DNA from: Myxococcota bacterium
GTDB lineage: Bacteria; Myxococcota_A; Bradymonadia; UBA7976; UBA1532
Reading direction: 5' to 3'
NCBI GenBank assembly: GCA_963169045.1
Contig: CAUJDF010000010.1
Location: 1-36,609, forward strand
Length of the DNA: 36,609 nt
Below, piece after piece: positions 97 through 13,624 of this stretch. Under the pieces are notes generated by a model. That model was not told where the DNA came from. It did not search any database and worked only from the letters and a program-made list of their open reading frames with translations. Within the stretch, counting starts at the first letter, position 1. The number at the start of each line of letters is the position of its first letter. The position numbers were made by a program, and so were the translations under genes.

Positions 97-99
97 GGG

Positions 100-172
100 A
101 GCGGGACACGGGATTCGAACCCGCGACTTTCAGCTTGGGAAGCTGACACTCTACCAACTGAGTTAGTCCCGC
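100..172 (-). tRNA. tRNA-Gly (anticodon CCC)
   Basis: The minus strand folds as a complete cloverleaf. The acceptor GCGGGAC pairs with GTCCCGC, the D stem is ACTC/GAGT, the anticodon stem TCAGC/GCTGA carries the loop TTCCCAA (anticodon CCC), and the T arm has the standard TTCGAAT loop. The discriminator base is T, as expected for bacterial tRNA-Gly. The 3' CCA is not encoded and must be added after transcription. The gene has its own promoter and terminator and lies 37 bp past the stop of the TPR gene. Confidence 0.95.
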
Positions 173-185
173 AGGGGCGCCGCCG

Positions 186-213
186 ATTCTACGGGGCCCC
201 GGAGGCTTGTCAA
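186..213 (-). promoter_or_regulatory. Promoter of tRNA-Gly
   Basis: On the minus strand a perfect -35 TTGACA (208-213) is followed after 16 bp by TAGAAT (186-191), one base off the -10 consensus. The expected start lies about 7 nt before the mature tRNA 5' end at 172. The TGA stop codon of the upstream TPR gene (210-212) sits inside this -35 box, so stop codon and promoter share bases. Confidence 0.8.
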
Positions 214-3200
214 GAGGCCGATGCGCCGAGTCGGCGGAGGCGGTCGCGAGTGTCGAGGAAGTCGGGGCCGCCGGCCTCCGCAATCTGACGGAGGTGCTGG
301 GAGGCGCTCGAACGGTCGCCGACAGCCTCGAAGGCGGTGGCGAGGTCGTAGTGCAGCCCCATGCGGGCGTCGCGGCCGACGTTGGGCAGCTCGAGCGCTT
401 CGCGCAGCCGGTCCACCGCGCGCGGGGCGTTGCCGAGCGCGAGGTCGCACAGGGCCATGACGCGAAGCGCCTCGGGACGACTCTCGGCGTTGCGGGCGGC
501 CTTCTCGAGCTGCTCGATCGCCTTGTCGTAGCGGCCCATCTCTTTGAAGGCCAGGCCGAGATCGAAGTGGGCGTGGACGTCCTCGTCCGTGAGGTCGGTG
601 ATCGTGGCGCCCTGGACCGAGGCCGGGTCGAAGTCGTCGTTGTCCGGCATCGCCGAGCGCATGAGGGCATCGAGACGGGCGCGGCGCGCATCGAGCTCGG
701 GGTGGCCCGGATACTCCAGCTCGAGCTCCTCGAGGAGCTCGCCGGCGTCGCTGACGAGGTTCGAGTCGAGGAGGAAGTCGAGCTCCGCCAGCTCGCCGCT
801 GACGTCGGCGGGCTCGGGCACGGCGACGCGCGGCGGCAGGAGCATCGCCGACGGCGCCTTCGCGGCCTCGTCACCGAGGTCCAGGTCGAAGGAAATTTCG
901 GCCGTGCCGTCGCGCGCGGCGTCCTCGCCGAGCGCATCGAGCGCGCTCGACGCCTCGGCCTCGACGTCGAAGCGCGACATGAGCTCCGGCGAGTCGTCGT
1001 TCTCGTCGAGGACCTCGATCTCCTCGTCGTCGATGAGCTCGATCTCATCGAACTCGCCGTCGTCGAGCTCCGAGGCGTCCGGTGCGCCGAGGCCCAGGTC
1101 GACGCCCGGAAGCGAGGCGAGCTCGGCTTCGAGCTCGATCTCCTGCGACGGCTCGGCTTCGAGGCCTTCACCCTCGTCCGAGCCCATGAAAAAGTCGTCG
1201 AGGTCGCTGGCGGGCGGCGGCGGGCGCCGGAAGGCGGCGAGCGCGGCGTCTGCGTCGGCCATGATCGTGGCGTCGCCGTCGTCGTCGCCCCCGTCGGCGG
1301 CGATGCCGATGTCGGCCTCGATCCCCGCCGGTGCGCCGAGGGCGTCGGCGAGCGGATCGTTCAGGTCGCCGAAGTCGAGGTTTACGTCGGCGCCACGGGC
1401 GCGCCCTTCGGCGGCGGGCGCGCGTACGAGGCCCGCGAACGGATCGGCGGCGTCGTCGAAGTCGGCGGGCTCGTCGTCGAGCGGCTCTTCCTCGGCTGCG
1501 GCGGGCCGCGCGACCTCTGGCGCGAGCAGGTCCGCGAACGCGTCGAGGTCGTCGTCCTCGGGTGCGTCGTCTGCGATGGGATCGGCGCCGTCCGCCTCGG
1601 CGGCGGCCGGAACGGCGGGCGCGGGGCTCGCGTGCGCCTCCGCGAGCAGGTCGTCGAACGCGTCGGGGACGGCGACGGCCGGCGCGTCGGCGGCCAGGAG
1701 GTCGTCGAACGGGTCGGGCTCGGCGGCCTCGGGTGCGTCGGCGGCCAGGAGGTCGTCGAACGGATCGGGCTCGGCGGCCTCGGGTGCGTCGGCGGCCAGG
1801 AGGTCGTCGAACGGATCGGGCTCGGCGGACTCCGGCGCGTCGGCGGCCAGGAGGTCGTCGAACGGGTCAGGCTCGGCGGACTCCGGCGCGTCGGCGGCCA
1901 GGAGGTCGTCGAAACCTTCGATCTCGGGCTCGGCGGACCCGGCGTCATCGAGCGCCGCGCTCGCGATGCCCGCGTCCGGCGCGTCGCCCCGCGCCGGGGC
2001 CTCGACGGCGTCGGCGCCGAAGAGGTCGTCGAGCTCGTCGAGCGGCGCTGCATCGGCCGGCGCGGCGAGGGGGGCGATGCTTGGGGGGCCGCTGCCGCCG
2101 AGCAGGTCGGCGAAGTCGTCGTCGGCCCCTTCGATGCTGGCCAGCGCGGCGTCGTCGACGAGGTCGTCGGCAACGGCCAGCGGCACGTCGGCCGACTCTT
2201 CGGGGGCGCCGTCGTCGAAGAGCCCGGCGAAGTCGTCGTTCGAATCGAGGCGAGCGATCGCGGTGTCCGTGCCGGGTCCGCTGCGGCCGAAGGGTCGGCG
2301 CGCCGGCTCGCCGAGGAGGTCGCCGAAATCGTCCGCCTCGGCATCGGGCTCGCCGGCAAGGAGATCCCCGAAGGCGTCGTCGTCTGCGGAGGGCGCCTCC
2401 GGGGACGGGCTGGCGATCTGCCCGGCGTCGCCGATGCGCATCGCGCCCATCTCGCCGAGGAGGTCGTCGAACTCGCCGCCGGCGATCTCGACCGACTCGG
2501 CCGCCTGGATCGGCCCGCCGAGCAGGTCGCCGAAGTCGTCACCGCCGGTCACGCCCGTGGCGCCAGCCTCGCCGAGCAGATCGTCGAAGCCGTCTCCGGC
2601 GATCTCGACCGAGGACGCAGCCTCGATGGGACCGTTCAGCAGGTCGCCCAGGCCGTCGTCCTCTCGCAGCGCCGCGGCGCTCGAGGGCCCGTCGGCGAGC
2701 AGGTCGTCGAAGCCGTCGAGCTCGGCCTGGCGCTCGTCTGAGCCACCGAGGAGGTCAGCGAAGTCGTCGGCCTCCCGCGTGGTTCGACGCGGGGGGGGAG
2801 GGGGCGCGTCCGCGCCGAGCAGATCGGCGAAGTCGTCGCCGTCGGCGCCGAGCAGGTCGTCGAACTCGCTGTCGGAGGGCACGCCTTCGTCGCCGCCGAG
2901 CAGGTCGCTGAAGTCGTCCTCGGCGGCTGCGCGCGGCGACGCCGCGCGCGCGGGCTTGGGCGGCGCCACCTCGTCGTCGAGGTCGATCGCGTCGAGGTCG
3001 AAGTCGGCGTCGAAGTCGCCGCCGTCGTCCATGGGCGCGGGCTCGATGGGCGCCGGGGCGATCGAGCGCGGCGGCAGCGGCGGCTGCGTGAGGTTCGCCG
3101 CCATGCCCCGGCTCAGCCGCTCCATGAGGCGCGTGGCCTCGGGGTGGTCGGGCTGCATCTGCAGCGCTTCGCCGAGCCAGGCCATGGCCTGGTCCGGCTC

Positions 3201-4430
3201 GCTGTCGCCCGTGGCGCGCGCCAGGCGCACGAGGGCGGTCAGCGCGTCGCCCGGCCGGCCGATCGCCAGCGCGATCTCCTTCAGCTTGAGCAGCGCGCCG
3301 GTGTGCTCCGGCTGGATCTGGAAGACCTCGTTGATGCGCCCCAGCGCGTGGTCGCCGAGGCCGTATTTCATGTACAGGTCGGCGTCGTCGATGCACTGCT
3401 GGATCTGCTGCGCCGGCGTCAGCGCCTCTTCGACGGGCGACACGACGGCGCCCAGGCGCGTCATGCCCTGCGTGCTCGTGATTGCCGACGTCGGATCGCC
3501 GCCGCGCGTCGCTTCGATGCCCGATGGCTGCCGGTGCTGCGTGCCGAGGATCTGGATCGCCTCGTTGTCGTAGGGATCGAGCGCGATGATGCGCCGGTAC
3601 GCCTCGAGTCGGCCGTTCTCGTCGCCGACCTCACCGTAGAGGCGCGCCAGCTCGCGGTAGACCGAGACCGCTTTGACGTGCTGGCCGAGCTCGGTGAAGG
3701 CGCGCGCCAGCAGCGAGAGCGTGTCGAGGTTCGTCGGGTCGGCCTTGAACAGCGTCTGCAGGCGGGCGAGCGCGCGCTTGGCGTCGCCGCGGCGCAGGTG
3801 CACGTCGGCCAGCGTGCGGATGGTGTCGAGGTCGCTCGGCGCGAGGAAGAGGAGGCGCTCGGCGACCTGCACGAACTCGTCGGCGCGGTTCGTCTGATAG
3901 AGCAGGTTGAGGACGAAGCGGTACTCGTCGGCAGCCGCATCGTTCTCGGCCTGGCGGATGTGGGCCTCGGCCAGGCGGATGCGGCCGGAGAGGTCATCCG
4001 GCGCGAGCTCGACGATGCGGCGCAGGAGCTCGAGGCTGTCCTTGTGGCGGCCGTCACGCTCGTAGGCGCCGACGACGATCTGGTACTGCCCGATGGCGTC
4101 CGGGGCCAGGCCGAGCTGCACGTACAGCTCCGCCAGCTTCAGGTGGGCCTCGATGTAGGTCGGATCGATGTTGAGGACTTGCTTGTAGACCGCGACGGCC
4201 TTCAGGAAGAAACCCTTGTCGCTGTAGTGCGTCGCGACGCGGGTGTAGGTGCCGACCGCATCCCGGATCGACCCCTTCTTGTAGTAGAGGTCGCCGATCT
4301 TGAGCCAGATCCGGATGTCTTCCGGATCCTCCTCGACGATCGAGCGGTACTCCTTGATGGCGCGGTCGAGCTGACCCTTCTGCGCGAACCGCTGGGCCGA
4401 AGCGATGACCTTGTTCTTATTGATGGCCAC
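210..4430 (-). CDS. Giant TPR protein with acidic FDDLL-repeat linker (SgmX-like architecture)
   Basis: 1406 residues, GTG start at 4430 with AGGAG 7 nt upstream. Residues 1 to about 440 are consecutive tetratricopeptide repeats. Residues about 465-1270 are an extremely acidic, Ala/Asp-rich, probably disordered linker with more than twenty copies of an F-D/A/G-D-LL-G/A motif, five of them in a 17-residue tandem array (DPFDDLLAADAPE plus a short spacer). A final TPR block fills about 1277-1400. There is no signal peptide, so it is cytoplasmic. N- and C-terminal TPR blocks joined by a long linker, together with the closeness to pilMNOPQ, recall M. xanthus SgmX, which couples MglA-GTP to pilus extension through its C-terminal TPRs. 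That homology is inference. It has its own promoter. Another possibility is a general TPR scaffold unrelated to pili. Confidence 0.9.
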   Translation of the reverse strand: MAINKNKVIASAQRFAQKGQLDRAIKEYRSIVEEDPEDIRIWLKIGDLYYKKGSIRDAVGTYTRVATHYSDKGFFLKAVAVYKQVLNIDPTYIEAHLKLAELYVQLGLAPDAIGQYQIVVGAYERDGRHKDSLELLRRIVELAPDDLSGRIRLAEAHIRQAENDAAADEYRFVLNLLYQTNRADEFVQVAERLLFLAPSDLDTIRTLADVHLRRGDAKRALARLQTLFKADPTNLDTLSLLARAFTELGQHVKAVSVYRELARLYGEVGDENGRLEAYRRIIALDPYDNEAIQILGTQHRQPSGIEATRGGDPTSAITSTQGMTRLGAVVSPVEEALTPAQQIQQCIDDADLYMKYGLGDHALGRINEVFQIQPEHTGALLKLKEIALAIGRPGDALTALVRLARATGDSEPDQAMAWLGEALQMQPDHPEATRLMERLSRGMAANLTQPPLPPRSIAPAPIEPAPMDDGGDFDADFDLDAIDLDDEVAPPKPARAASPRAAAEDDFSDLLGGDEGVPSDSEFDDLLGADGDDFADLLGADAPPPPPRRTTREADDFADLLGGSDERQAELDGFDDLLADGPSSAAALREDDGLGDLLNGPIEAASSVEIAGDGFDDLLGEAGATGVTGGDDFGDLLGGPIQAAESVEIAGGEFDDLLGEMGAMRIGDAGQIASPSPEAPSADDDAFGDLLAGEPDAEADDFGDLLGEPARRPFGRSGPGTDTAIARLDSNDDFAGLFDDGAPEESADVPLAVADDLVDDAALASIEGADDDFADLLGGSGPPSIAPLAAPADAAPLDELDDLFGADAVEAPARGDAPDAGIASAALDDAGSAEPEIEGFDDLLAADAPESAEPDPFDDLLAADAPESAEPDPFDDLLAADAPEAAEPDPFDDLLAADAPEAAEPDPFDDLLAADAPAVAVPDAFDDLLAEAHASPAPAVPAAAEADGADPIADDAPEDDDLDAFADLLAPEVARPAAAEEEPLDDEPADFDDAADPFAGLVRAPAAEGRARGADVNLDFGDLNDPLADALGAPAGIEADIGIAADGGDDDGDATIMADADAALAAFRRPPPPASDLDDFFMGSDEGEGLEAEPSQEIELEAELASLPGVDLGLGAPDASELDDGEFDEIELIDDEEIEVLDENDDSPELMSRFDVEAEASSALDALGEDAARDGTAEISFDLDLGDEAAKAPSAMLLPPRVAVPEPADVSGELAELDFLLDSNLVSDAGELLEELELEYPGHPELDARRARLDALMRSAMPDNDDFDPASVQGATITDLTDEDVHAHFDLGLAFKEMGRYDKAIEQLEKAARNAESRPEALRVMALCDLALGNAPRAVDRLREALELPNVGRDARMGLHYDLATAFEAVGDRSSASQHLRQIAEAGGPDFLDTRDRLRRLGASAS
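1684..1913. repeat. 51-bp tandem repeat inside the TPR gene
   Basis: A 26-bp core starting gcgtcggcggccaggagg recurs at 1684, 1735, 1786, 1837 and 1888, an exact 51-bp period. Intervening bases differ at only a few sites (for example Ser versus Ala codons). It encodes 17-residue units containing FDDLLAADAPE. Such near-identity suggests recent duplication or homogenisation, and copy number may vary between strains. Confidence 0.9.
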
Positions 4431-4570: not shown

Positions 4571-5134
4571 TCACTTCCCGACGCGGGAGATGTACTCGCT
4601 CGTCCGGGTGTCGACGCGGATGATCTCGCCCTCCTCGACGAAGAGCGGCACCTGGACGATCGCGCCGGTCTCGAGCGTGGCGGGCTTCGTCGCGCCGGTG
4701 GCGGTGTCGCCGCGCACGCCGGGCTCGCAGTAGGTGATCTTCAGATCGACGTGGTTGGGGACGTCGACGCCGATGGGGCGCTCGTTCCAGAGCAGCACCT
4801 GGACGTTGGTGTTCTCCTTCAGCCACTGCGCCGCGTCGCCGAGGTCCTCCATCGTGATGGCCATCTGCTCGTAGGAGCGGGTGTCCATGAAGTGCCAGGC
4901 CTCGCCGTCGCTGTAGAGGGCCTGCATTTCGACTTCCTCGGTGTCGGGCTTGCCGACCTTGTCACCCGAGCGGAAGTTGATGTCGAGGTTGCGGCCGTCG
5001 ACGAGGTTCTTCATGCGAACCTTGACGAAGGCCACCCCCTTGCCGGGCTTGACGTGCTGGGCCTCGACGATCTGCCAGAGGCCGCCCTCGTATTCGATCT
5101 TCAGGCCTTTTCGGAAGTCGCTGGTCTGGTACAT
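4571..5134 (-). CDS. efp: Elongation factor P
   Basis: 187 residues, the normal EF-P length, ATG start with AGGAG 6 nt upstream. EF-P binds ribosomes stalled at consecutive prolines, between the P and E sites, and promotes peptide bond formation. The N-terminal KOW-like domain has the loop KPGKG, whose lysine (K32 here) corresponds to the modified K34 of E. coli. Two OB domains follow, and the C-terminal EGEIIRVDTRTSEYISRVGK matches the family signature. The start overlaps the aroQ 3' end by 34 bp, so the two are probably co-transcribed. Nearby products have proline runs (PilQ, the TPR protein, CtpA) that may need EF-P. Confidence 0.97.
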   Translation of the reverse strand: MYQTSDFRKGLKIEYEGGLWQIVEAQHVKPGKGVAFVKVRMKNLVDGRNLDINFRSGDKVGKPDTEEVEMQALYSDGEAWHFMDTRSYEQMAITMEDLGDAAQWLKENTNVQVLLWNERPIGVDVPNHVDLKITYCEPGVRGDTATGATKPATLETGAIVQVPLFVEEGEIIRVDTRTSEYISRVGK

Positions 5135-5577
5135 GGGGCTCTCCTCGCGCTCAGATGTTGGGTGAGCGCGTCTAGCGCGAGGCGGTAGCCGTACGCTCCG
5201 AAGCCGCCGATGGTGCCGACCGCGATGTCGGACACCAGCGAGCGCCGCCGGAACGGTTCCCGGGCCGCCAGGTTCGTGAGATGGACCTCCACCATCGGCA
5301 GCCGCGCCGCGAGGAGGGCGTCGCGGAGGGCGACGCTGGTGTGGGTGTAGCCGCCGGCGTTGAGCACGATGCCATCGGCGTCATGGCGGGCCGCCTGGAT
5401 GAGCTCGACGAGCTCACCTTCGTGGTTGCTCTGGCGACAGGTGACCCGTACGCCGATCGACTCCCCCTGGGCGACGAGGTCGTGTTCGATCTCCGCGAGG
5501 GTCGTCGCGCCATAGCGATCGGGCTCACGCTCGCCGAGCAGGTTCAGGTTGGGGCCGTTGAGGACGAGGACGTGCAT
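5101..5577 (-). CDS. aroQ: 3-dehydroquinate dehydratase, type II
   Basis: 158 residues, typical for the small dodecameric type II enzyme that converts 3-dehydroquinate to 3-dehydroshikimate in the shikimate pathway. The start HVLVLNGPNLNLLGEREP is the family signature: Arg17 and Tyr22 correspond to the catalytic lid residues. The block CRQSNHEGELVE carries the catalytic Glu region and NAGGYTHTS the catalytic His. A longer open frame extends upstream to 5706, but those 43 residues look non-native and the family always begins at the MHVLVLNGPN block, so ATG 5577 is chosen. The last 11 codons overlap the start of efp. The C-terminal tail is Arg/Thr-rich and not conserved. Confidence 0.95.
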   Translation of the reverse strand: MHVLVLNGPNLNLLGEREPDRYGATTLAEIEHDLVAQGESIGVRVTCRQSNHEGELVELIQAARHDADGIVLNAGGYTHTSVALRDALLAARLPMVEVHLTNLAAREPFRRRSLVSDIAVGTIGGFGAYGYRLALDALTQHLSARRAPCTRPATSEKA

Positions 5578-5609
5578 GGGGCGAGCGGGCGCGCCAGCGC
5601 CGGGCAGCA

Positions 5610-5966
5610 TCAGAGTTCGCGCGCGAGGTCGGGCGCAGTCACCCGCAGCTGGAAGCGGCCCTGCCCGGGCGGCGTGCCCGGCGTCACGCTCAGCGCGACG
5701 AACCACTTCGGAGAGAGCATGCGGATCAGCGTCACGCGGTCGGGGCCCTCGACCGTGAACTCACGGATCTGGCCGACCTCCATCGCGTCGCCGACGTTGA
5801 GGAGCTGGCGACACACCGATGCATACTCGACGGTCGCGTTCTCGGCCGCGATGGGCTCGCCGATGCCGTCGACGGCCTCGAGCGCGAGCCCGTCGACGCT
5901 GACCACCGCCGCGCCGAGCGCGCCGGGTACCTTGCTCACGAGCTGACCGAGCGATGCGGTGAACAC
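5610..5966 (-). CDS. Roadblock/LC7 domain protein (MglB-like family)
   Basis: 118 residues, GTG start with GAGGAG only 3 nt upstream. The protein is one small alpha/beta domain: an N-terminal helix (VSKVPGALGAAVVSVDGLALEAV), a central helix (ENATVEYASVCRQLLNV), then strands ending RVTLIRMLSPKWFVALSV. This pattern (VxGaxaavvvdxdGlxl, helix, then a hairpin with exposed aromatics) is typical of roadblock/LC7 proteins. They often dimerise and regulate small Ras-like GTPases; MglB, the GAP for MglA in M. xanthus, is one. No GTPase gene is present in this window. It has its own promoter and lies 32 bp before aroQ. The family call is by pattern; a specific MglB role is inference. Confidence 0.75.
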   Translation of the reverse strand: MFTASLGQLVSKVPGALGAAVVSVDGLALEAVDGIGEPIAAENATVEYASVCRQLLNVGDAMEVGQIREFTVEGPDRVTLIRMLSPKWFVALSVTPGTPPGQGRFQLRVTAPDLAREL

Positions 5967-6907: not shown

Positions 6908-9900
6908 TCACGGCGCGGTCCGCACCGAGGCCGCCGACTTGTTGACGATGCGCGGCGTGATGAAGATGAGCAGCTCGGTCCGGCGATCGCTCTCCGTGTG
7001 ATTGCGGAAGAGCGCGCCGAGGATCGGGATGTCGCCGAGCAGCGGGATCTGGCGGCGCGAATAACCGGAGTTGCTCGTGTAGATGCCGCCGATGACGGTG
7101 GTATCGCCGTCGCGGAGCAGGAGCTCCGTCTTCGCTTCCTTCTTGAGGATGGTGGGGTCGCCGCGGGCGCCCGTGTTCTGGAAGTCGGGCGTGTTGTTCT
7201 CGGCCCGCATGTTCAGATAGATGTTGCCGTCCTGCGTCACGTGCGGCTTCACCGTCAGCTTGAGGACAGCGTCGAAGAACACCGTCTGCACGCCGGCGGC
7301 GCTCACCTGCGAGATCGGGATGCTGACGCCCTGACTGATGAGCGCTTCCTTGTTGTCGAGCGTCGTGATCTTCGGGCTGCTGACGATCTTCACGACACCG
7401 GACGACTCGGCGGCGGTGAGGCGCACGTTCAGGTTGAACGTGCTGTCGACGCTGCCGAACTGCATGCCGATGCCACCACCGGTGCCCGCGCCGACCGCCG
7501 CCGGCAGGTTCACGATGAAGTTCGGGTTCGTCGAGGTGCCCTCGATGGGGCCCTGGGCGTCGTCGGCGGCGCCGCTGATGCCCACGGTGCTCGGGAAGCG
7601 CAGGCCGGTCGGGTTGCCGGTCGCGCCGCTCCAGAGGGCGTCGCCGCCCCACTGGATGCCGAAGTCGAGCTGCTCGTTGGTGTTCACCTCGACCAGCCGG
7701 GCCTCGATGAGCACCTGCGGCGTCTGCGTGTCGAGGCGTCGGATGAGGTCCTCGGCCGCGTCGACGTAATCGGCCACGTCCTTGACGATGACCGTGTTCG
7801 TGCGCTCGTCGAACTGGACGCTCCCGCGGGGGCTGATGACGCTCGCGACGCGCTCGCGGAGGTCGGCGGCGGTCGCATGGTTGACGGTCACCATCTTCAC
7901 GTGGAGCGGCGCGAGCTCGACCTCCTGCTTGTTCGCCATGAGGGCGCGCTCGCGCTCCTTGGCGATGTCCTCGGCGAGGCCGATGCGGATGATGTCGGAC
8001 TCCTCGACCATGTCGAGGTCCTTGGTCTTCAGGAGGATTTCGAGCGCCTGGTCCCAGGGCACGCCCTTGAGGTGGAGGGTGACGGTGCCGCCGACCTTGT
8101 CGCTGGTGATGATGTTGATGTTGCCCTCCTTGGCGAGGAGGCGCAGCACGTTGTGGATGTCGGCGTCCTTGATGTCGATGTTGATCTTGCGGCCCTTGTA
8201 CCGCTTGACCGCGCGGCCGGCGCTCTGGCCCGTGGGGGCCGAGCGGATGGCCTGGGACGGACCGGTGTAGGCCGCGGCGCGGGCGCCGCGGTAGTTCACC
8301 TCGGTGGCCACGGCGGGGCGCGCGGCGGGCGGGGGCGGCGTCCACGCCGGCGGCGGCGGCACGGCGGCGAGCGGCTGCTGGCGGGCGGGCTTGCCGAACG
8401 ACCACACCAGCTTGTCGCCCTTCAGCTCGACCTTGTCGGCGACGAGCTCCCCGAGGGTGACGACGACGCGGACGCGGTCGCCCGGCGGCGGCGCCTGGAA
8501 GCTGCTGACGAGCTGGACCGCGCTCGGGAACTCGCCCGTGTCGAGGCTACGCTCGAGCGAGGGCTCGATCAGCGCGTTGTCGAGCTCGAGGATGCGGGTC
8601 CGCTCGCCCTCGCTCTTCACCGTGTACTGGACGCCGCCCTCGACGGTCAGCCGGATGTAGGTCGCGTCGTTGCGATCGTCGAACTTCACCTCGGTGACGC
8701 GCGCGCGCGCCTTCGGGGGCGGCGGCACGACAGCGAGGGGTGCCGGCCTGGCGGGGGGCGCAGCCGCCTGCTGCTGCTCGGCGGCCTCGCGCTGACGCCG
8801 CGCCTCGGCGCGGGCGTTGCCGAGCTCCGTCTCCTTCTGCGCCAGGGCCGCGCGGAGGTCGGTCGACTCCTGCTGCAGGTCAGCGACGGCCTTCTGCAGC
8901 CGGTCGGCCTCCTTCGTGTCGTCCCTGCGGGTCCGGGCGGCCTCGAGCTCGGCCTGCAGGGCCTTGAGGCGGGCCTCCATCGCCGAGGCGGCCTTCGCCG
9001 ACTCGAGCTGCGCCACCTGGGCCCGCTCGGCGCTCAGCTCGGCGTCGCGGGCGCGCTGCTCGGCGGCGAGGCGCGCGCGCTCCGTGTCGTCGGCGCCCTT
9101 GGCACCGGCGGCGGCCTGCTTCTGCTGTGCCTCGAGCGTCTCGATGCGGGTGAGCGCCGTCTGGCGCTGACCCTCGAGGGCCTCGAGCTCCGCGGCGAGC
9201 TGGGCGCGGGCCGCCTCGGCCTTGCGGGCGCGCTCGTCGGCGGCGATGGCGCGGGCCTCGGCCTCGCGGGCGCGCTGCTCGGCGGCGGCTTGCGCGGCGG
9301 CGGCCTTCTCGGCCTCGCTGCGGGCGGCGGCGTCGTCGGTGGCGCGCGCCTTGTCGGCGGCAGCCTGCGCCTTGGCGACGGCGGCGGCCTTCTCGGCGGC
9401 GGCCTGCTCGGCCATCGTCCGGGCGCGGGTCGCGTCGGCCGTCGCCTGGCCGGCGGCGGCCTCGGCGGCAGCCTTCTCGGCGGCGGCCTGCTGCGCGGCG
9501 GCCTCGAACTGCTTCGCGCGGGCCTGGGCCTCGGTGGCGCGGGCCTGGGCCGCCGTCGCCTCGGCGCGGGCCTGCGCCGTCCGCGCCTCGGCCTTCTCGC
9601 GCTCGCTCGCGGCCTTCTCCGCCTGGGCGCGGGCCTGGGCGGCCTCGGCCTCGGCGGCCTGACGCTGGGCGGCGGCCTTGTCGGCGGTCGACTGCGCCTT
9701 GTCGGCGCGGGCCTGGGCGCCCGCAGCGTCCTTCAGTGCCTTGTCGGCGGCGGCCTTCGCCTGGGCAGCGGCCGCCTCTGCCGCCGCCTTCTCCTTCTTG
9801 AGGCGCTCGAGGTCGGCGCGGGCCTGGGCGGCGGCCTGGTCGGACGCGGCCTTGTCGGCCGTCGCCTGCGCCGCGAGCTTCTCGGCGGCGGCCTTGTCGG

Positions 9901-10666
9901 CGGCGGCCTGGGCGGCGGCGGCCTCGGCGGCGGCCTTCTCGGTCTTGAGGCGCTCGAGGTCGGCGCGGGCCTGGGCGGCGGCCTGCTCCGCGGCGGCCTT
10001 GTCGGCGGCGGCCTTCTCGGCGGCGGCCTTGTCGGCGGCGGCCTCGGCGAGCGCCTTCTCCTTCGCGGCCTTCTCGGCGGCCTTCTCGGCGGCGGCCTTG
10101 TCGGCGGCGGCCTGGGCGGCGGCCTTGTCGGCGGCGGCGCGCTCCTCGGCGGCGCGGGCGCGGGCCTCGGCCTCCGTCGCGCGCGCCTCGGCCGCCGGAT
10201 CGACCCCCGGCGCCGCCACGGGCGCGCTCGCGACCGGCCGCTCCACCTTCCGCTGCGAGGCGTCGACGCTGATCAACAGGTCGTTGCCCTTTGCGCGGAC
10301 GGTGTAGAGCGCGTCGACCTCGAGCCCCACGACGACGCGGCCGATGCTGACCAGGTCGTCCTTGTAGGGGATGCCCGTGATCTCGCCCACCACGCCATTC
10401 TCGACGGCGACTGGGGCGGACACCGCGGAGATATCGGCGTTGCTGATGTCGACGAAGAGCCGGGTGGGGTCGCTGAGCTTGAAGACGGTGAAGGTGGGCG
10501 GCTGCGACCCCTTCACGACGATCTCCGTGGCAGAGCTGCTCTCCCGGACCTCGACGCCGGAGATGCGGTTGAGGGCCTGCTCCTGCGCCCAGGCCCCGGC
10601 GGCGAACGCCATCGCGAAGATGGCGCCCCATACGCCCGCTGCGCTTGGTCCCAATCGCACGGTCAC
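6908..10666 (-). CDS. pilQ: Type IV pilus secretin PilQ with giant coiled-coil insert
   Basis: 1252 residues, well above the usual 700-900 for PilQ. The GTG start overlaps the pilP stop (GTGA). Order: signal peptide (about 1-27, ending AGAWA-QE); an AMIN-like peptidoglycan-binding domain (about 30-145); an Ala/Lys/Glu/Arg-rich coiled coil (about 158-632, many AADKAAAEKAA units); a second AMIN-like domain (about 650-760); Pro-rich linkers; an STN/N0 domain (about 827-900, INIDIKDADIHNVLRLLAKE); an N1 domain (about 925-990); and the secretin beta barrel (about 1050-1245), with the conserved block PLLGDIPILGALFRN and end motif ELLIFITPRIV. It forms the outer-membrane pore for the pilus. The coiled coil is unusual and might span or brace the periplasm. 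Confidence 0.96.
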   Translation of the reverse strand: MTVRLGPSAAGVWGAIFAMAFAAGAWAQEQALNRISGVEVRESSSATEIVVKGSQPPTFTVFKLSDPTRLFVDISNADISAVSAPVAVENGVVGEITGIPYKDDLVSIGRVVVGLEVDALYTVRAKGNDLLISVDASQRKVERPVASAPVAAPGVDPAAEARATEAEARARAAEERAAADKAAAQAAADKAAAEKAAEKAAKEKALAEAAADKAAAEKAAADKAAAEQAAAQARADLERLKTEKAAAEAAAAQAAADKAAAEKLAAQATADKAASDQAAAQARADLERLKKEKAAAEAAAAQAKAAADKALKDAAGAQARADKAQSTADKAAAQRQAAEAEAAQARAQAEKAASEREKAEARTAQARAEATAAQARATEAQARAKQFEAAAQQAAAEKAAAEAAAGQATADATRARTMAEQAAAEKAAAVAKAQAAADKARATDDAAARSEAEKAAAAQAAAEQRAREAEARAIAADERARKAEAARAQLAAELEALEGQRQTALTRIETLEAQQKQAAAGAKGADDTERARLAAEQRARDAELSAERAQVAQLESAKAASAMEARLKALQAELEAARTRRDDTKEADRLQKAVADLQQESTDLRAALAQKETELGNARAEARRQREAAEQQQAAAPPARPAPLAVVPPPPKARARVTEVKFDDRNDATYIRLTVEGGVQYTVKSEGERTRILELDNALIEPSLERSLDTGEFPSAVQLVSSFQAPPPGDRVRVVVTLGELVADKVELKGDKLVWSFGKPARQQPLAAVPPPPAWTPPPPAARPAVATEVNYRGARAAAYTGPSQAIRSAPTGQSAGRAVKRYKGRKINIDIKDADIHNVLRLLAKEGNINIITSDKVGGTVTLHLKGVPWDQALEILLKTKDLDMVEESDIIRIGLAEDIAKERERALMANKQEVELAPLHVKMVTVNHATAADLRERVASVISPRGSVQFDERTNTVIVKDVADYVDAAEDLIRRLDTQTPQVLIEARLVEVNTNEQLDFGIQWGGDALWSGATGNPTGLRFPSTVGISGAADDAQGPIEGTSTNPNFIVNLPAAVGAGTGGGIGMQFGSVDSTFNLNVRLTAAESSGVVKIVSSPKITTLDNKEALISQGVSIPISQVSAAGVQTVFFDAVLKLTVKPHVTQDGNIYLNMRAENNTPDFQNTGARGDPTILKKEAKTELLLRDGDTTVIGGIYTSNSGYSRRQIPLLGDIPILGALFRNHTESDRRTELLIFITPRIVNKSAASVRTAP
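8770..10195. repeat. Low-complexity GC-rich repeat region encoding the PilQ coiled coil
   Basis: The minus strand encodes degenerate 4- to 11-residue units rich in Ala with alternating Lys/Asp/Glu/Arg. One stretch containing AQARADLERLKTEKAAAEAA recurs with little change about 40 residues later. On the plus strand this appears as endless ggcggcggcctt runs. The repeats create long meaningless open frames on the other strand. Confidence 0.85.
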
Positions 10667-11253
10667 AGCTCCTCCAACTGCGTCAGCTCTTCGTCGCTCA
10701 TCAGTCGCTTCACGGTCTCGGCGGTCTGCCCGTCGGGCTTGACGACGAGGGGCTTGAAGACGACCTCGTTCCGGGTGATGCGCGTGACGCGCTTCGGCTC
10801 GTCGCGCCCGACGATGTCGCCTGGCTTGATCACGTGTCCCATGCCGCGGGGATCGACGACCAGCGCCTTGTGGATGGCGGTGCCGGTGATGATCGCCTCG
10901 AGCTGCAGCTCGGCGACCTCGAACGGGATGTCGCCCTGAATGGGCGGCGGCCCCACGGTCGTCTTGTCGTTGAGCTCCACGGGGTCGACGAAGACCTGGA
11001 AGGGATCGCGGGTATCGCGCACCGACCGGTCGAGCTCGTCTTCCGAATTCCAGTCGAGATTCCGGTACTTGGCCGGCACCTTCGTCTCGTCGAGGCCGGC
11101 GGCCGCGGCAGTGCCGGCGGCCGCCGACGCGGGCGCGTTCGGCTTCGACCGGTTCGACCCGCGCTGCTGCGTCTTGGGCTCGTCGTCGCCGCAGGCGCTC
11201 GCGAACAGCGCGGCCGCGGCGGCCAGCGCCACGGAGAGGCGGATGGGGCTCAC
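10663..11253 (-). CDS. pilP: Type IV pilus inner-membrane lipoprotein PilP
   Basis: 196 residues. The GTG at 11253 shares GTGA with the pilO stop. An upstream start at 11316 would bury the signal inside pilO, so this start is chosen. The N terminus is a lipoprotein signal (lipobox ASAC, Cys21), followed by a flexible Ala/Ser/Lys-rich linker (about 25-60). The C-terminal beta domain (about 110-190) has RDPFQVFVDP and later a VIKPGDIVGRD block, as in PilP. PilP bridges PilN/PilO to the N0 region of the PilQ secretin. Its position between pilO and pilQ, with overlaps on both sides, fits stoichiometric translation. Confidence 0.93.
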   Translation of the reverse strand: MSPIRLSVALAAAAALFASACGDDEPKTQQRGSNRSKPNAPASAAAGTAAAAGLDETKVPAKYRNLDWNSEDELDRSVRDTRDPFQVFVDPVELNDKTTVGPPPIQGDIPFEVAELQLEAIITGTAIHKALVVDPRGMGHVIKPGDIVGRDEPKRVTRITRNEVVFKPLVVKPDGQTAETVKRLMSDEELTQLEEL

Positions 11254-11876
11254 TTCGGCTGACCTCCCGCCGGCTCGGCGCCCGGGGCGCGGTACATGAA
11301 CGTCGTCGCCGTGCACTTCGCCTCGAGCACCGCTGCCGTCTCCGTCCGGGCCGAGGCGCCGGCAGTCATCTGCGGCGGAGCGACGGTCAGCTCGATGTTC
11401 TCGACGTTGACGATCCGGGTGAGCTTGCCCACGTAGTAGAAGAACGTCGCGATCTGGTGGAACGTCCCCGCCAGCGTCATGCGCACCGGGATGCGCACGT
11501 ACAGCTCATCGGGCGTCATGTTCGCGCGCTCGAAGCGCGCGATCTCGAGCCCGACGATCTTGCCCTGACCGTGGATCTTCTGCAGGAGCGACGCGATCTC
11601 CGCGTCCTCGGGCAGGCGGTCGCGCATCTCGTTGCGCGCCGTCTTGAGCTGCTCCACCTCGGCCTCGATGCGGCGGATGTTCTGCTCGATGCCCTTCGCG
11701 TCGGCGAGCTGCTTGTTGAGCTGCGTCGTCCGCGCGCGCTCGGCGGTGATCTTGTCCTCGGTCTCGGAGATGAACAGGAAGTACCAGCCGGCCCCGATGC
11801 CGCCCAGCAGGAGCAGCAGCAGCACGAGGCGCTGCGATGCAGGGATGGCCGAGAACTTGTCGAGCGCCTCACTCAT
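11250..11876 (-). CDS. pilO: Type IV pilus alignment protein PilO
   Basis: 208 residues, ATG with GGAG upstream. The cytoplasmic tail is short (1-16). A transmembrane helix at about 17-36 (LVLLLLLLGGIGAGWYFLF) is followed by a coiled coil (about 40-90) and a ferredoxin-like periplasmic domain (about 95-185) with the conserved TFHQIATFFYYVGKLTRIVNVENI block. PilO pairs with PilN and contacts PilP to align the inner-membrane motor with PilQ. It starts 24 bp after pilN. Confidence 0.95.
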   Translation of the reverse strand: MSEALDKFSAIPASQRLVLLLLLLGGIGAGWYFLFISETEDKITAERARTTQLNKQLADAKGIEQNIRRIEAEVEQLKTARNEMRDRLPEDAEIASLLQKIHGQGKIVGLEIARFERANMTPDELYVRIPVRMTLAGTFHQIATFFYYVGKLTRIVNVENIELTVAPPQMTAGASARTETAAVLEAKCTATTFMYRAPGAEPAGGQPK

Positions 11877-11900
11877 GCGTTCGCTCCGCCGCCCCCCGGC

Positions 11901-12566
11901 TCACTCGGATTTCTTCGCGGCGCCCAGCTCGCCGGCCGCCAGCTTCTTCAGATCGGCCTGGCCGTAGAGCGCGAGCATGTCGATGTCGAACTGCACCGTC
12001 TTCATGCCCTGCTCCTGCACCGCCGCCGAGAAGTTCAGCCTCACTTCGGTGAAGTGACGGGCGGAAGAGAGCCGGTGCAGGAACTCGGCGAGGTCGTCGT
12101 TGCTGCGGGCGTAGCCGGTCATCTTCACGATGCGGTTGTTCTCGACGAAGGTCTTGATCCACAGGCGCTTGGGATCCCAGTCGGGGTTCCAGCCGCGCTT
12201 CTTCTGCGCCAGCTTCAGCGCCGGATCTTCGACCGGGCTGAGCATGAGCGACAGCTCGTCGAGCATCTTCACCGGACCGGTCTGGCCCTCGACGATCGAG
12301 TCGAGCACCTGCTTCTGGCGCTCGAGCTCGACCTTCTCCGCCTCGGCCTTCTTGCCGGTGGCGGCGAGGGCTTCGAGCTTCTTCACCTCGGCGGCCAGGC
12401 CGCCGTTCTTGCCGACGAGCGACGCCAGCTCGTCGTCCTTCGAGCTCGACCAGTAGAAGAAGACGCCGACCTCGGCGATGACGAGGACGACGAAGAGCAG
12501 CAGCATCTGCTTGCCGCTCTCGCGCTTCTTCGCCTCGCGGACCGGGAGGAGGTTGATCCGAATCAT
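11901..12566 (-). CDS. pilN: Type IV pilus alignment protein PilN
   Basis: 221 residues. The N-terminal motif IRINLLPVREAKKR is the conserved cytoplasmic peptide that binds PilM. A transmembrane helix (about 21-38), a coiled coil (about 42-90) and a ferredoxin-like periplasmic domain follow. Between coil and domain is a Trp-rich segment (RGWNPDWDPKRLWIKTF, near residues 125-140). The ATG overlaps the pilM stop in ATGA, so translation is coupled. Confidence 0.95.
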   Translation of the reverse strand: MIRINLLPVREAKKRESGKQMLLLFVVLVIAEVGVFFYWSSSKDDELASLVGKNGGLAAEVKKLEALAATGKKAEAEKVELERQKQVLDSIVEGQTGPVKMLDELSLMLSPVEDPALKLAQKKRGWNPDWDPKRLWIKTFVENNRIVKMTGYARSNDDLAEFLHRLSSARHFTEVRLNFSAAVQEQGMKTVQFDIDMLALYGQADLKKLAAGELGAAKKSE

Positions 12567-13624
12567 TTGTCGCCCGGCCCCCGGAGCGCGAGCCCCACGG
12601 CGACGGCGGCGAGCGGGCGCACCTCGTTGATGTAGTCGAGGTTGAACAGCTTCTGGTCGATCTGGATGTTGCGGAAGGGATCGAGCAGCTCGACCGGCAC
12701 GCCCACGCGCTGTTCGATGGTGCGCGCCAGCGCCGGCACCTTGGCCGTCCCGCCGGAGAGATAGATGCGCGACATGCGCCCTTCGCTCGACGTGGCGAGG
12801 TAGAAGTCGAGCGAGCGGTGGATCTCGCCGGCCATCGCCTCGCTGACCGACTGGATCACCCGCTCGACCTCCTGGGGGATCACGCTGTCGGCGTCGACGC
12901 CGCGCTCACCTCCCAGCTTGTACGCTTCGGCTTCGTCGTAGGAGACGTTGAGCTGCTTCTGGATCTCTTCGGTGAACTGGTTGCCGCCCATCGAGATGTC
13001 GCGGGTGAACGACGTGATCCCGTTGGCGACGACGTTGATGTTGATCATGCTGGCGCCGATGTCGATCAGCACGACCGTCTCGCCCGGCGGCCAGGCGTAG
13101 TTCACCTCGAAGGCGTTCTGGATGGTGAACGAGTCGACGTCGACGACGACCGCCTCGAGGCCGGCCTCCTTCACGATGCCGACGTACTCCTCGACCATCT
13201 CCTTCTTGGCCGCGACGAGCAGGACGTCCATCTGTCCCTGCTCGGGCCGCGACTGCAGGATCTGGTAGTCGAGGTTCACGTCGTTCACGTCGTAGGGGAT
13301 GTACTGCTCCGCCTCCCACTTGATGCTCTCGTCGAGCTCCTCGGGGGTCATGGCGGGGAGGCCGATCTTCTTGATGATGATCGAGTTGCCGCTCAGGCTG
13401 ATCGCGACTTCCTTCGACTTGAGCTTCTGCGCCGAGATCATCCCCTGGATGGTGTCGACGACCGCCGTGGCATTCATCAACGCGCCGTCGACGATCGCTT
13501 CGGGCGGAAGGGGAGCCATGGAGAAGTTGAGGAGCTGGACGCCCTTCTTCGTCTCCTTGACCTGGACGAGCTTGATCGAGCTGGACCCGATGTCCAGGCC
13601 AATGGCGTTCCGGCGACGGGCCAT
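12563..13624 (-). CDS. pilM: Type IV pilus actin-like ATPase PilM
   Basis: 353 residues, cytoplasmic, FtsA/actin fold. Phosphate-1 motif GLDIGSSSIKLV lies at about 9-20, phosphate-2 motif LIDIGASMININV near 187-199, and the adenosine motif YLSGGTAKVPAL near 291-302. PilM binds the N-terminal tail of PilN and links the alignment complex to the PilB/PilT motor side; motor and pilin genes are not in this window. The ATG at 13624 has GGGAGG about 10 nt upstream. It is the first gene of pilMNOPQ and is preceded by a 170-bp gap with a candidate promoter. Confidence 0.97.
   Translation of the reverse strand: MARRRNAIGLDIGSSSIKLVQVKETKKGVQLLNFSMAPLPPEAIVDGALMNATAVVDTIQGMISAQKLKSKEVAISLSGNSIIIKKIGLPAMTPEELDESIKWEAEQYIPYDVNDVNLDYQILQSRPEQGQMDVLLVAAKKEMVEEYVGIVKEAGLEAVVVDVDSFTIQNAFEVNYAWPPGETVVLIDIGASMININVVANGITSFTRDISMGGNQFTEEIQKQLNVSYDEAEAYKLGGERGVDADSVIPQEVERVIQSVSEAMAGEIHRSLDFYLATSSEGRMSRIYLSGGTAKVPALARTIEQRVGVPVELLDPFRNIQIDQKLFNLDYINEVRPLAAVAVGLALRGPGDK

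Follow-up and report, generated by a model that had tools for sequence, protein, structure and literature searches.

The closest described counterpart of the protein analysed here is SgmX of M. xanthus (MXAN_5766), a protein of 1060 aa with N-terminal, middle and C-terminal TPR blocks that is encoded in a pilMNOPQ-mglC-sgmX locus. Pilus activation has been assigned to its N-terminal TPRs and FrzS binding to the three middle TPRs (PMC11580455), and the last three TPRs are described as binding MglA-GTP (PMC7668184). SgmX1 and SgmX2 of Bdellovibrio (Bd2492 and Bd2490) likewise contain TPRs and have been connected with MglA/RomR and with pili. The C-terminal helix of MglB, an acidic amphipathic element whose core, taken together with that of the window motif described below, reads D-D-D-[IF]-x-[DN]-L-[FL]-small, ends a roadblock protein in a single copy and has been solved on MglA. 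In crystal 6IZW, MglB residues 147-157 are helical and lie on MglA, which D150-D152, D154 and F157 contact, and the receiving pocket comprises L64, I67, K181 and K185 of MglA (PMC6785124). This helix drives nucleotide exchange on MglA, and the RomR helix is able to replace it, thus the pocket takes more than one ligand. In HubP and FimV, a C-terminal TPR domain and a long acidic cytoplasmic linker, repetitive in HubP, go together with polar pilus regulation (PMC12918733).

The window, i.e., the whole 36,609-nt stretch of DNA that was analysed, has the gene order pilM-N-O-P-Q, a small gene, mglC, aroQ, efp and sgmX, and its features relevant here are as follows:

98..172, minus strand: tRNA-Gly(CCC), directly downstream of sgmX, as also in the relatives L039, L040, L041 and L057
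210..4430, minus strand: sgmX orthologue, 1406 aa (NCBIfam NF052243, 347 bits, E 2.8e-103; start aligned with orthologues)
231..800, minus strand: C-terminal TPR block, aa 1211-1400 (NCBIfam SgmX profile, 61 bits, E 6.8e-17)
801..3080, minus strand: acidic disordered linker, aa 451-1210 (composition; pLDDT about 32-50 up to aa 640)
1422..2918, minus strand: array of 22 D-x-F-x-D-L-L-[GA] motifs, aa 505-1003 (motif search)
1641..1928, minus strand: recent 17-residue tandem duplication (PDPFDDLLAADAPEAAE), aa 835-930 (sequence repeats)
3087..3416, minus strand: middle TPR module, aa 339-448 (structure model)
3534..4418, minus strand: N-terminal TPR superhelix, aa 5-299, about 8 TPRs (TPR profiles and structure model)
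4571..5134, minus strand: efp (elongation factor P)
5101..5706, minus strand: aroQ (type II dehydroquinase), with its actual start probably near 5580
5610..5966, minus strand: mglC orthologue (Roadblock/LC7; PDB 7ct3, M. xanthus MglC, E 2.6e-15)
6908..10666, minus strand: pilQ secretin, 2.5 kb from sgmX
10663..13624, minus strand: pilP, pilO, pilN and pilM (PilP match weak, below the cut-off)

The window protein is almost certainly an SgmX orthologue. Its N-terminal TPR block scored 321 bits (1.8e-95) against NCBIfam SgmX, with the next TPR family at 98 bits, and its C-terminal 227 residues scored 61 bits (6.8e-17; profile positions 892-1017), ahead of all other TPR families, of which the next reached 32 bits; the linker scored separately against this profile gave nothing. 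Together with the pil-locus synteny and pilQ only 2.5 kb away, this bears out the preliminary description, which had proposed an SgmX-like protein near pilQ and had asked for a profile comparison of the C-terminal TPRs. The 347 bits of the whole protein lie below the curated NF052243 equivalog cut-off of 1800 bits, which was passed in the searches made by only 12 Myxococcaceae-type genomes, their SgmX having been retrieved by an order-level search with the SgmX model, with all other scored orthologues below it. Since 1800 bits amounts to a near-identity threshold, we retain the term orthologue rather than equivalog. The genome of the window organism also has an mglB-mglA operon, with mglA at L246:1950-2540. 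N-terminal SgmX homologues were found in 124 of 141 genomes of the phylum and in 13 of 13 of the window's family, while viral contigs scanned for relatives of the window protein yielded none. The resemblance to HubP/FimV is likely an analogy: TIGR03504 (FimV_Cterm) reached 29.9 bits on the window SgmX, just below its cut-off of 30.65, but SgmX has N-terminal TPRs, its repeats are unrelated, no LysM domain was seen among the families listed, and no membrane anchor was seen.

The sgmX gene starts with GTG, and orthologues have ATG at the same place. The protein is longer than M. xanthus SgmX (1406 vs 1060 aa) and has three TPR blocks of about 8, 3 and 3 repeats, the first two recognised by Pfam and the structure model and the third by the profile; TPR Pfam families match both ends, where TPR blocks had been noticed before. 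Modelling of aa 1-640 gave TPR helices with pLDDT of about 97 in aa 5-299 and again in aa 339-448, and from about aa 450 onward pLDDT falls to roughly 32-50. A fold search against solved structures returned generic TPR superhelices only. By position, the middle module (aa 339-448) corresponds to the three FrzS-binding TPRs of M. xanthus SgmX.

The other genes of the locus have features of their own. The efp gene adjoins sgmX in the window and in many relatives, and the SgmX linkers of the window's family contain polyproline runs, of 8-9 prolines in L041; EF-P is required for translating polyproline, and the adjacency may be a coincidence. PilQ of the window carries a very long alanine-rich, charged, coiled-coil-like insert at about aa 150-600, between the AMIN domain and the secretin part. 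In many families a gene for an ExeA/GspA-like AAA_22 ATPase lies directly 3' of sgmX, often 4 bp away (L082, L090, L317, L347, L323, L095, L206 and others), but none was found at this place in the window's family. The C-termini of these ATPases are acidic, amphipathic and similar to the SgmX motif described below (DDFDDIFVELIEK, EAEDAFLDLLDD, LDDLFVELIEE, AEDAFLDLLDD), and the Myxococcaceae ATPase ends DLAEIDRYLEGLGKL.

What sets the window protein apart is its linker. With 219 D/E vs 26 K/R in the 785 residues of aa 441-1225 (28% and 3%), it is as acidic as the preliminary description had it, and the more than twenty short motifs reported there were recovered too. F.[DE]L[LF] occurs 18 times (shuffle mean 0.15, maximum 2 in 2000 shuffles), and a looser pattern gives 22 copies with the consensus D-x-F-x-D-L-L-[GA], in which D(-2) is kept in 19/22, F in 20/22, D(+2) in 20/22, the two leucines in 22/22 and 19/22, and G/A in 19/22; EGADDDFADLLGGSG is a 15-residue example. 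The stated length of roughly 800 residues fits the disordered region, which spans about 760, but the motifs themselves are spread over only about 500 residues of it (aa 505-1003). Between the motifs the sequence varies far more than at the motif positions. Copies of the tandem block, at aa 840-908, share identical codons, while the others are irregularly spaced and differ in synonymous codons. The suggestion of a multivalent binding array agrees in kind with a disordered chain of 22 motifs, whose multivalency we infer. A proteome-wide role of the motif was considered and rejected, as D-F-[DEAG]-D-L-L occurs 12 times in the genome and 5 of these are in sgmX; the remaining 7 fall in unrelated ORFs, mostly folded enzymes or domains and one perhaps non-coding. 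An unrelated protein of another class member (L393:1686-3536) has repeated KPEPVVAKPEP and two F/L-D-D-L-L motifs (DEDFDDLLVAEPTDELDDLLVAEP) ahead of a C-terminal membrane segment.

The motif extends beyond the window. All 12 SgmX proteins of its family have at least one relaxed copy, with 1 to 22 copies each and 99 in total, some of the proteins ending at contig edges. Outside the family, [FY][DE][DEN]L[LFMI] was found beyond aa 330 in 41 of 160 non-redundant SgmX, against 3.4 expected from shuffles, and with a slightly wider pattern 48 of the 51 motif-bearing proteins had exactly one copy. Where the C-terminal TPRs of these proteins could be anchored, the single motif lay at most 60 residues from them in 39 of 40 cases, usually just after; in f3, a family of the window's class, several SgmX have it just before. 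Judged from these sequences, the array is a lineage-specific expansion of a motif that is otherwise single and positionally conserved in SgmX. The F-x-D-L-L motif is absent from the proteins closely related to M. xanthus SgmX, which score 1872-2070 bits with the curated model; their C-terminus reads KARKVGY[LV], an end that the window protein lacks. No F-x-D-L-L-type motif is mentioned in the part of the SgmX literature covered here.

A second type of conserved SgmX tail, basic-aromatic with the pattern [KR]-x-[IV]-[SG]-[YF]-[VL], stands at the very end of about 30 proteins (L206-L217, L079, L081, L082, L085, L089, L155 and L186), as KARKVGYV in Myxococcaceae-type proteins and as KKISFV or KKNIGYL in other lineages. 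The mimB truncation of M. xanthus would delete this tail, if M. xanthus has one.

The motif resembles the MglB tail; the preliminary description had noted neither this likeness nor the wide single-copy occurrence beside the MglA-binding TPRs of SgmX. M. xanthus MglB ends ..EISDDDIDNLFS(E), and 69 of the 70 MglBs recovered keep a tail close to EITD[DE]DID[NS]LF, the exception resembling a broken reading frame. Between the window motif DDDFADLLGG and MglB DDDIDNLFSE the residue classes are the same, i.e., D at -2, hydrophobic at 0, +3 and +4, D/N at +2 and small at +5; the window motif differs in having F for I, mostly L for F, and many copies inside a linker, and is a candidate MglA binder. MglA of the same genome retains L64, I67, K181 and K185. 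A degenerate DNA pattern for D[DE]D[IMLF][DEAG][NSDG][LF][LF] found only the mglB tail and the sgmX array in this 9-Mb genome, and across 57 genomes of the class its matches were mostly MglB tails or SgmX, with unrelated proteins as the rest and 2 matches for the reversed pattern. A profile built from MglB tails only gave 22.8 bits for DDDVDNLFEG and 17.9 for DDIFDDLFGD (p about 0.003), and 15.9 for EDDFDDLFDE, in SgmX of relatives and was significant in SgmX of f3, f6, f13 and two f1 genomes. The first of these peptides, at aa 541 of SgmX in L087 (G091), is a near-copy of the MglB tail. On the window's own copies the same profile reached at best 8.8 bits (shuffle p 0.54), its background there being high because of the acidic composition, and over all SgmX it gave no general family-level signal, being significant in about 9% of MglB-bearing families (median).

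In the converse comparison, with a profile of the motif of the window's family, 6 of 1974 other C-termini scored at or above the MglB median, the MglB tail of the genome itself was matched or beaten by 5 of 1974, and over whole proteins 4% of others scored as high as MglB tails. Among the top-scoring C-termini were tails of the AAA ATPases encoded downstream of sgmX, which favour a helix type used across the pathway and not MglA in particular, so the partner may be another protein. The motif also follows MglB in its distribution (family-level Fisher p 0.003). Where the genome has MglB, 44 of 75 SgmX carry it, a real excess over shuffles (5.3, maximum 11); where MglB is missing, 2 of 46 do, with no such excess (1.1), and both exceptions have MglA-like GTPases. 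The association is partly an effect of length, since SgmX from MglB-less genomes have fewer residues and in many cases no C-terminal half.

The likeness to the MglB helix points to MglA as the partner, and three other explanations have to be weighed against it. TPRs often bind acidic C-terminal peptides, and the motif could dock on the TPRs of SgmX itself, as the preliminary description had also considered, in an auto-inhibited state that would be freed when MglA-GTP binds the C-terminal block. The motif does stand directly after the C-terminal TPRs in other families, the mimB frameshift after Gly802 removes the C-terminal end of M. xanthus SgmX, and the C-terminal TPRs of that protein are described as masking a polar site until MglA-GTP binds (PMC7668184). 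However, M. xanthus SgmX is auto-inhibited although its close relatives are motif-free, and auto-inhibition leaves the likeness to the MglB tail unexplained. The models likewise lend it no help: in the predicted structure of aa 1-640, to judge from the low confidence along the linker, no motif docks on either of the first two TPR blocks, and the C-terminal motif of a 716-aa relative is predicted as a helix at pLDDT of about 65, both being weak negatives for TPR docking because the linker lacks alignment depth. We consider this explanation improbable. Docking on another polarity or pilus partner, such as the FrzS pseudo-receiver, MglC, SopA, PilB or the downstream AAA ATPase, also appears unlikely. 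An I-D-x-L-L core recalls the CheY-binding peptides of FliM and CheZ, which would suit the FrzS pseudo-receiver. Similar acidic tails occur on the AAA ATPase adjoining sgmX in many families, and mglC is encoded beside sgmX, MglC binding the RomR helix through a basic cleft, but the interface of RomR with MglC needs a tryptophan that the motif does not have. SopA and the FrzS pseudo-receiver are both binding partners of M. xanthus SgmX, but the binding of FrzS maps to the middle TPRs (PMC11580455).

The remaining explanation, which we also regard as unlikely, dispenses with a dedicated pocket: the array would be a low-specificity sticker-and-spacer system, or repeats that expanded almost neutrally, with linker length, charge or polar condensation depending on it, the last a possibility raised in the preliminary description as well. 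The recent tandem duplication with identical codons among the copies at aa 840-908 and the range of 1 to 22 copies among the 12 family members are in line with it, as are the variable acidic repeats of the polar landmark protein HubP (PMC12918733). Such an origin fits poorly with motif residues D, F, D, L, L and small being kept while the flanks vary and, outside the tandem block, synonymous codons differ; nor does it account for at least one relaxed copy in every one of the 12 proteins, or for the one copy at a fixed place in other families, seen in 41 of 160 proteins vs 3.4 expected.

Based on sequence comparison, we tentatively prefer, at somewhat short of an even chance, the reading that the motif docks on MglA as a helix of the MglB kind and that the array is tethered to the MglA-binding TPRs. 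By transfer from M. xanthus, the window SgmX would respond to MglA-GTP as its effector and switch on the extension of type IV pili at the leading pole via its N-terminal TPRs. The motif would form a short amphipathic acidic helix that docks in the MglA pocket of alpha5 and the beta2-beta3 loop. In most motif-bearing SgmX, the TPRs and the one motif copy would jointly grip one MglA, much like the roadblock dimer of MglB together with its tail; in the window's family the motif, multiplied within the linker, could make a chain of weak MglA sites that concentrates MglA around SgmX at the pole. Since the MglB helix promotes nucleotide exchange, the array may help to hold MglA in the GTP-loaded state. 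It counts against MglA docking that M. xanthus SgmX binds only MglA-GTP, whereas the helix of MglB has a role in the GDP state too. Moreover, as M. xanthus SgmX binds MglA-GTP while its close relatives are motif-free, the motif is dispensable for MglA binding in general.

Short hydrophobic-acidic motifs repeated many times in a disordered linker and serving one adaptor pocket are known from Eps15 and epsin in endocytosis; those proteins and their partner are unrelated to SgmX, and the analogy is one of design only. We hypothesize, with still more reserve than for the docking itself, that an ancient MglB-tail-like motif beside the MglA-binding TPRs was expanded in the window's family to about twenty MglA sites, giving this effector of a Ras-like GTPase a multivalent and possibly exchange-promoting array that gathers the GTPase at one pole. 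This reading bears on how MglA-GTP and SgmX are gathered at one pole and on how SgmX engages MglA. A motif common to MglB and many SgmX suggests that the GAP and the effector compete for one MglA pocket, and the array, if it acts in this way, would be a bacterial parallel to the multivalent docking arrays of eukaryotic trafficking proteins.
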